Below, in pieces: positions 4,731 to 46,366 of a stretch of DNA of 64,000 bases (position 1 is its first letter; every line of letters starts with the position of its first letter). A program made the translations under genes and the position numbers. The notes beneath the pieces are model-generated. The model was not told the origin of the DNA. It ran no database searches and saw only the letters and a list, made by a program, of their open reading frames with translations. The DNA comes from Akkermansiaceae bacterium (GTDB taxonomy: Bacteria; Verrucomicrobiota; Verrucomicrobiia; Verrucomicrobiales; Akkermansiaceae): contig JABDRB010000012.1 in the NCBI GenBank assembly GCA_013041925.1, forward strand, positions 186,001-250,000, read 5' to 3'.

Positions 4731-5205
4731 ATGCCTCCAAACTCACCAAAAGCCACACCGGCAGGTAAGCGCTACAAACCGAAAAATTGTCGCTTACTCC
4801 GAGCATGAAAAAAATATCCTCAAGGCAATGTTTCCCGACCAGCACGACAGGATAGAAGGACTATACTTTAATGCGAATATGAGGAGGTGGTTTCGCAACA
4901 ATATGCCCAGCGAATACAACCGCCTTAGAGCAGCTCGACAAGGCCAATACAACAGCAAGGTAGGGTTAATAGATTTTCTTGGTCTGGATGAAATTGATTA
5001 TACCGTGCCTACCTTTTTTGAGAGGTTTAGCCCTGCCAAGGCTATTGGCAACCTGGAGGATCAATTAAGATGTCATGGGGATCACAAATTGATCACCGGA
5101 AGGCGCAAATCTGATTTCACCAATCTCTATACCTATAACAAGCACGATTGCCGTGGTATGCAGGCCCTCCTGAAATACTGCCTGAGCCGCACCAGCACAG
5201 ACTAG
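4731..5205 (+). pseudogene. RNase H-fold exonuclease-like fragment with probable frameshift
   Basis: An ATG at 4731 opens a short frame (MPPNSPKATPAGKRYKPKN) that stops at 4806, while the adjacent frame carries about 135 protein-like residues to 5205. The long frame begins around IVAYSEHEKNIL and ends with YNKHDCRGMQALLKYC. The AYSxxE and YxxxD elements recall the exo II and exo III regions of 3'-5' exonuclease/RNase H-like domains (RecB-associated TM0106 type); the N-terminal DxE motif is missing. I read this as a frameshifted, N-terminally lost remnant. Family assignment is tentative. Confidence 0.4.
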
Positions 5206-35830: not shown

Positions 35831-35925
35831 GGAGAGTGAAGCGTGCCTGGTGGCCGCCGCGGTTTTCAAAACCGTTGAATGGCTATAACGGTCATTGGTT
35901 GGTTCGATTCCTTCCCTCTCCGCCA
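35831..35925 (+). tRNA. selC: Selenocysteine tRNA (tRNA-Sec, anticodon UCA)
   Basis: 95 nt with encoded GCCA, the length of E. coli selC. The 5' GGAGAG pairs with CTCTCC. The D arm has six pairs (GCG/CGC and GCC/GGC around loop TGGT) with one bulged T, the anticodon loop TTTCAAA gives TCA, and a long variable arm AATGGC/GTCATT closes a TATAACG loop. The T loop is TTCGATT. Two oddities: the T stem GTTGG/CCTTC has two T-T mismatches, and acceptor pair 7 is T-C. Nucleotides 9-11 (AAG) could instead extend the acceptor helix by pairing with CTT. It decodes UGA with SelB and is charged through SelA; those genes are not in the window. Confidence 0.87.
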
Positions 35926-45733: not shown

Positions 45734-46306
45734 ATGAAATCTATCTTACTCAGCTCAGCTCTGGCCGCGTTTGGTCTCGCAGCATTACCGGTCCAGGCGG
45801 ACAATACGTCCACCCCACCCGCCGTTGAAAAACCGGCACCGTCAACAACTTCCGTTTATGAAGTGCTCGTTAGCGGCGCGGGATGAGGCATCCCAGCGAG
45901 AGCCAGTTCGGCTCTCAATTCCCTAAAAGGCATCCAAAAAATCCTTTTCTCAGGGCTTCGTGCCACCGTTTTCATGCAGGACGGCCAATCACTGGATCAA
46001 ACGAAAACCACGAAGGCACTCGAAGCAAAAGGCCTCCGTGTCACCTCCTTCAGCCAATCAGACATACCCGTGCCCAAGGCAGGTTACGTCCTCGCCGTCG
46101 CAGGCACCGGATGAGCCACTACCGGTGATAAGGTCCGTGTGGCCTTAGAAAAACTCGATGACGTCACCGCTGCCTACGTCACCCGCAGCATCACCCTCCA
46201 CCTCGCCCATGCAGGTGATCTCGACCAAGCCCTCATCGAAGAGACACTCAAACCCTTCAGGATTACCATCAAACAAGCGACACGTATCGAAGGAAAATTG
46301 CACTAA
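45734..46306 (+). CDS. Exported diselenoprotein: two tandem HMA-like domains with Sec replacing the metal-binding Cys
   Basis: 190 aa if TGA at 45884-45886 (codon 51) and at 46112-46114 (codon 127) are read as selenocysteine. A signal peptide (MKSILLSSALAAFGLAALPV, cleavage after QA) and Pro-rich linker lead to domain 1 (about 41-107: VLVSGAGUGIPARASSALNS, LKGIQKI, ATVFM, TKALEAKGLRV) and domain 2 (about 116-188: LAVAGTGUATTGDKVRVALE). Both show the beta-alpha-beta-beta-alpha-beta pattern of heavy-metal-associated domains, with U at the first Cys of CxxC; the second Cys is Pro or Thr. No cysteine occurs anywhere. The frame stays protein-like through both TGAs to TAA at 46304. Metal binding, redox or a chaperone role is inference. 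Monocistronic. Confidence 0.87.
45898..45916 (+). promoter_or_regulatory. Bacterial SECIS-like hairpin for Sec51
   Basis: GAGAGCC/GGCTCTC, perfect 7-bp stem with loop AGTTC; G is the second loop base. The stem begins 12 nt and the loop 19 nt after the TGA, within the range SelB uses. Lies in the coding frame. Confidence 0.75.
46129..46147 (+). promoter_or_regulatory. Bacterial SECIS-like hairpin for Sec127
   Basis: TAAGGTC/GGCCTTA, 7-bp stem (one T-G pair) with loop CGTGT; G is again the second loop base. The stem begins 15 nt and the loop 22 nt after the TGA. Same stem and loop sizes as the first element but unrelated sequence. Confidence 0.7.
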
Positions 46307-46330: not shown

Positions 46331-46366
46331 ATCGGCCAGCGCCTCATCAGGTGCTGGCCGATTTTA
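46331..46366 (+). terminator. Rho-independent terminator of the selenoprotein gene
   Basis: ATCGGCCAGCGCC/GGTGCTGGCCGAT, 13 bp with one G-T, loop TCATCA, then TTTTATTGT. It lies 25 bp after the TAA at 46304, supporting that this TAA, not either TGA, is the true end of the gene. Confidence 0.85.

Follow-up and report, generated by a model that had tools for sequence, protein, structure and literature searches.

A probable exported double selenoprotein with tandem HMA-like domains, each carrying one predicted selenocysteine, in Akkermansiaceae

The window (the whole stretch of 64,000 nucleotides from an Akkermansiaceae bacterium that was analysed) contains a gene that, judged in silico with a probability of roughly 90%, encodes an exported selenoprotein made of two tandem HMA domains, each with selenocysteine (Sec) at the first CxxC position. 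Its frame of 190 codons, none of them for Cys, is interrupted by in-frame TGA at codons 51 and 127 (Table 1), exactly as described in the first-pass annotation, and the terminator that had been placed past the TAA corresponds to a 14-bp terminator-like stem followed by a T tail. In the proposed mechanism, which is strongly supported, each UGA is served by its own SECIS hairpin, SelB and Sec-tRNA would decode both UGAs as Sec in one pass, and the end of the protein would be set by TAA rather than by UGA. Sec insertion, initially no more than inferred from the frame, has gained support from a covarying SECIS element at each TGA, the presence of SelA, SelB, SelD, and tRNASec, and the HMA fold of the product.

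Table 1. Features of the double-Sec locus and related genes of the host (positions in the window unless a contig is named)
Feature	Position	Strand	Remarks
Double selenoprotein gene (190 aa, 2 Sec; signal peptide and two HMA-like domains)	45734..46306	+	ATG at 45734, TAA at 46304-46306
Signal-peptide-like N-terminus, residues ~1-23, MKSILLSSALAAFGLAALPVQADN	45734..45802	+	Boundary set by eye
HMA-like domain 1, residues 38-113, Sec at residue 51	45845..46072	+	
UGA codon 51, predicted to be read as Sec	45884..45886	+	51/51 homologues
SECIS hairpin 1, GAGAGCC-AGUUC-GGCUCUC	45898..45916	+	-13.0 kcal/mol; apical loop starts 18 nt past UGA
HMA-like domain 2, residues 114-187, Sec at residue 127	46073..46294	+	
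UGA codon 127, predicted to be read as Sec	46112..46114	+	51/51 homologues
SECIS hairpin 2, UAAGGUC-CGUGU-GGCCUUA	46129..46147	+	-7.0 kcal/mol; apical loop starts 21 nt past UGA
Strong terminator-like stem-loop of 14 pairs with a T tail	46331..46362	+	3' of TAA
tRNASec gene, anticodon TCA	35831..35925	+	~10 kb upstream of the double-Sec gene; ARAGORN; Rfam RF01852 56.4 bits (gathering 47)
UxxxC companion gene of the host	G000:C29:147256-147588 (L143, about 4757-5089)	+	

The distribution of the two TGA codons among homologues was examined at several taxonomic levels. With the TGAs read through, the window protein matched 20 other genomes among 58 relatives, each match having exactly two internal TGA codons. 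A profile search of 387 genomes of the order yielded 50 full-length homologues, all with two TGAs, and the search of 260 genomes of the family likewise gave 50 full-length matches, all with two TGAs, plus one cut by a contig end. No full-length match was found outside the order in a phylum-wide search of 388 genomes. In the codon alignment, TGA occupies both aligned columns in 51/51 homologues and no other column, at identities to the window protein down to 26%. The usual terminal stop is TAA or TAG, and two homologues (G039 and G265) end in an ordinary final TGA at the usual C-terminus of the family. A single-sequence search of public genome contigs and viral contigs with the window protein gave no match; a profile search of public contigs recovered 13 loci, and the named carriers are Rubritalea marina DSM 17716 and Rubritalea profundi SAORIC-165, alongside Akkermansiaceae and Verrucomicrobiales MAGs.

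Purifying selection past codon 51, which had been put forward as a test of the frame, is evident: median NG86 omega, taken from sequence pairs of moderate divergence in the codon alignment of the 51 homologues, is 0.28 before U1, 0.17 between the TGAs, and 0.12 after U2. Translation therefore appears to run through to the final stop, as indicated by the low omega downstream of both TGAs. On the other hand, the alternation of TGA and TGC across relatives that had been suggested as a check is absent. The lack of any homologue with TGA or Cys at the two sites had been named as a refuting observation; all homologues carry TGA, and no Cys orthologue at either Sec site was detected among the 260 family, 387 order, and 388 phylum genomes. 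Cys orthologues at the Sec position, the usual bioinformatic criterion for a selenoprotein, are thus lacking in the double-Sec family, and Cys at the Sec site was seen only in distant CxxC HMA proteins, which are paralogues. The missing Cys orthologue is outweighed, because double TGA is conserved in all homologues and accompanied by SECIS elements.

Each TGA is followed by a hairpin with a 7-bp stem and a 5-nt loop of the form xGUxx, whose apical loop starts 18 nt past the first UGA and 21 nt past the second; this 3-nt difference in spacing corresponds to a one-residue offset between the two protein repeats. At both sites, all 51 homologues have G within the first two positions of the loop; the next base is U in 50 (site 1) and 48 (site 2). 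On average, 6.27 (hairpin 1) and 6.57 (hairpin 2) of the seven pairs are formed, as compared with means of 4.2 and 4.1 and maxima of 4.69 and 4.49 in 500 synonymous recodings. Pair changes on both sides, for example from A-U to G-C, occur at 5/7 positions of hairpin 1 and 6/7 of hairpin 2. The covariation scores of 0.436 and 0.611, respectively, were matched by none of 500 shuffles and dropped below 0.2 once the stem partners were slid. Both hairpins fit the bSECIS model (PMC13188914), except that many of them, taken in isolation, fall short of its energy limit (-7.5 kcal/mol); this limit is reached by 33/51 isolated hairpins at U1 and 21/51 at U2, and is narrowly missed by hairpin 2 of the window. 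The strongest protein conservation, K-A-R-V-A-L after U127, may partly be the RNA hairpin showing through the codons. A scan of the window for further TGA frames with SECIS elements returned both sites of the double-Sec gene and a few chance-like matches in non-gene frames.

With regard to the decoding machinery, SelA (504 bits), SelB (over the family cut-off), SelD (370 bits), and tRNASec are all present in the host genome. The tRNASec gene is flanked by genes for a rhamnosidase and a glycosyltransferase, with selA and selB located far away on other contigs. The SelD of the host (L134, G000:C21:73839-74765) is itself a selenoprotein, with one in-frame TGA and a CAGU-ASK motif. Across the order, SelB over the cut-off was detected in 46/50 carriers of the double-Sec gene vs 59/337 non-carriers (Fisher p 1.3e-25, a value that ignores shared ancestry and is indicative only). 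Among the four carriers without SelB over the cut-off, three are incomplete assemblies (80-88%) and one (G260) is 93% complete.

The architecture of the product was assessed by structure prediction and profile comparison. The AlphaFold model (pLDDT 87) contains the beta-alpha-beta-beta-alpha-beta arrangement twice, that is, the ferredoxin-like fold of the HMA superfamily. In VIA comparison with HMA domains, Z reached 10.2 (domain 1) and 9.6 (domain 2), and the top Foldseek matches in the PDB include ATP7B and Bacillus subtilis CopA. Many of the top VIA matches are rice Pik HMA domains, which were set aside as sharing a common fold, not a function. The two repeats align with each other at a profile-profile probability of 98.6% with their Sec residues superposed, which bears out the earlier proposal that the TGAs occupy equivalent positions in two homologous repeats. 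The further proposal that Sec stands where HMA domains have the first Cys of CxxC agrees with profile alignment, AlphaFold, and VIA; against the tandem HMA structure of B. subtilis CopA (PDB 1p6t), the sequence profile scored E 9e-9 and placed U127 over the first Cys of CxxC. The second Cys is missing from both domains, and neither contains a CxxC motif: position +3 after Sec is occupied by P/A/S/G/T/D in domain 1, and for the most part by T in domain 2. Pfam PF00403 scored 15.4 bits on the window protein, below its gathering cut-off of 24.8, and matched 9/20 members at E up to 1 (best 1.4e-5). In the HMA topology, the Sec loop and the beta2-beta3 turn lie at the same end of the domain. S73-G74, in the beta2-beta3 turn, are nearly invariant, and the pocket around the Sec loop is probably conserved, since that topology places the loop at the same end as these residues.

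Several other explanations for the frame were weighed against the selenoprotein reading. Under the standard code, the gene contains two stops in frame, and it could accordingly be viewed as a pseudogene in which translation stops at the first TGA and the remainder decays. Such decay is refuted by the homologues, which keep just these two TGAs and no other stop, by the omega of 0.12-0.17 downstream, and by the covariation of the hairpins, so that this explanation has practically no probability left. The reading of two UGAs within one gene might also be ascribed to something other than Sec, such as reassignment to Trp (code 4), near-cognate readthrough, or another suppressor. TGA, however, terminates 11/40 long ORFs in the window, which indicates the standard code without reassignment of TGA; moreover, each UGA has a position-specific SECIS hairpin after it, the Sec machinery is complete, and HMA relatives have Cys rather than Trp at the site. 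Together with the purifying selection, these observations led to the rejection of reassignment and Trp readthrough, and non-Sec decoding of any kind is considered very improbable.

It might further be supposed that the gene belongs to a known family, either the UxxU metal-binding (seleno)protein family NF041115 or Sec-containing MerP, and has merely been met in a new host. NF041115 is indeed the best NCBIfam match (19/20 members at E up to 1, best 1.2e-6), and two Sec-containing MerP sequences were reported without details in the GOS data (PMC2398784). Nevertheless, the scores remain far below the cut-offs, at 22.2 bits vs 95 for NF041115 and 14.9 bits vs 92.55 for MerP (TIGR02052), and a CxxC tandem paralogue from the same genus passes NF041115 whereas the double-Sec family does not. 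Both families place Sec at the first CxxC position of an HMA-type domain, but the two Sec residues of NF041115 share one UxxU motif within one domain, whereas the double-Sec protein has two domains with a single Sec apiece and no UxxU. Membership in a known family is hence regarded as unlikely.

The first-pass annotation knew of no described family with such an architecture, and none has come to light. The 119 prokaryotic selenoprotein families and subfamilies listed in 2026 (PMC13188914, Table 1) contain as HMA-related entries a Sec-containing cation ATPase, a putative mercuric transport protein, and NF041115 (two Sec, UxxU), to which the GOS data add Sec-MerP (PMC2398784); none of these is listed as having a pair of HMA domains with a lone Sec apiece. 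A scan of 20 members against NCBIfam 20.0 found nothing near any cut-off, and no paper on the double-Sec family was found in the open-licence literature, although a description elsewhere is possible. As far as could be searched, the double-Sec tandem HMA protein is a previously uncatalogued family. Two Sec residues per bacterial protein are also known from MbdU (NF045648), the HUGP/GUXX-star fusion, and TsoB (PMC13188914), but these have other motifs, and the double-Sec family has no match to the models at E up to 1; for MbdU, a metal-binding protein with a CU motif, this holds in each of the 20 members, which have no Cys beside Sec. B. subtilis CopA (PDB 1p6t, 2rml) shares the two tandem HMA domains, with Sec127 falling on the first Cys of CxxC, but CopA has CxxC in both domains and forms part of a membrane ATPase, whereas the double-Sec protein is exported and stands alone.

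A companion to the double-Sec protein was detected in 29/117 genomes of the family, double-Sec genomes and the host included. This single-HMA selenoprotein, which is exported, bears a UxxxC motif, and has a SECIS element of its own, makes up a second uncatalogued exported selenoprotein family. Further companion loci are L067-L070 and L145-L148. There is always one TGA per domain, the SECIS loops have sequences such as GGUCU, and no metal operon was seen by eye near the companion gene. Like the double-Sec protein, the companion is exported, has an HMA domain and a UGA with its own SECIS, and occurs in the same genomes; it differs in having one domain as a rule, in keeping the partner Cys, and in a SECIS located further downstream. 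G287 has a pair of near-identical UxxxC domains, both with a SECIS element, joined in a single frame; G327 and G349 have two UxxxC genes side by side. These cases show one route to a double-Sec protein, in which a domain is duplicated along with the SECIS that serves it, and the two-domain form described here probably derives in the same way from a single Sec-HMA module and its SECIS.

In addition, the products of three loci of one genus (L072, L073, and L074) are exported tandem HMA proteins in which both domains have CxxC and the N-terminus is rich in Cys; L072, the one tested, passes NF041115. Being exported and composed of two HMA domains, they represent a natural Cys counterpart of the architecture. 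They are paralogues rather than orthologues of the double-Sec protein, as they coexist with its gene in G287 and G327.

The mature window protein has two Sec residues and no thiol. Among its relatives, the signal-peptide-like N-terminus is replaced in several of the Rubritalea group by a lipobox Cys (LASC, TASC, or SATSC, recognized by eye), and other exceptions to the thiol-free mature part are rare. Clustering of ORFs around the 51 loci revealed no conserved operon partner: an S21-like ribosomal protein gene lies upstream in one genus, a methyltransferase gene is the neighbour in another, and a peroxiredoxin-like gene occurs directly downstream on the same strand at L113 (5580-6159) and five similar loci. 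No functional partner can be named, because synteny is conserved only at the genus level, and no conserved gene around the 51 loci supports metal handling in particular.

As two lone selenols sit in a metal-binding fold, soft-metal capture is suggested as the most likely function, at somewhat less than even odds: judged by its fold and residues, the protein may serve in the cell envelope as a chaperone or scavenger that binds a soft metal ion, such as Hg, Cu(I), or Ag. One ion could be bridged by both selenols, or each domain could bind its own. The more specific picture of an obligately Sec-based site, in which a thiol-free tandem HMA protein would clasp a soft metal with a pair of selenolates, each supplied by a different domain, is rather unlikely. 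A redox role, through a selenol/diselenide pair or two separate selenols acting in peroxide reduction or thiol exchange in the envelope, is the main competing proposal and should be taken as a tentative one. A diselenide would be stable in the oxidising envelope. Position +3 leaves no second metal ligand in either domain, and motifs of the UxxT type occur in known redox selenoproteins (OsmC-like and GPX-like; Table 1 of PMC13188914). The peroxiredoxin-like gene just downstream at six loci also fits a redox role, but it is confined to one genus; furthermore, the fold is that of metal-binding HMA domains rather than thioredoxin-like, and the mature protein has no resolving thiol.

Most selenoprotein surveys rely on Cys homologues. 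Having no Cys look-alikes, the double-Sec family suggests that Cys-based surveys are likely to overlook families of such kind, and its gene is present in about a fifth of the examined genomes of a family with many marine members. A natural gene with two SECIS elements in series within ~260 nt would provide a measure of what two UGA recodings cost a bacterium. Likewise, in a thiol-free protein with two selenols, Sec-metal or diselenide chemistry could be tested free of interference from Cys.
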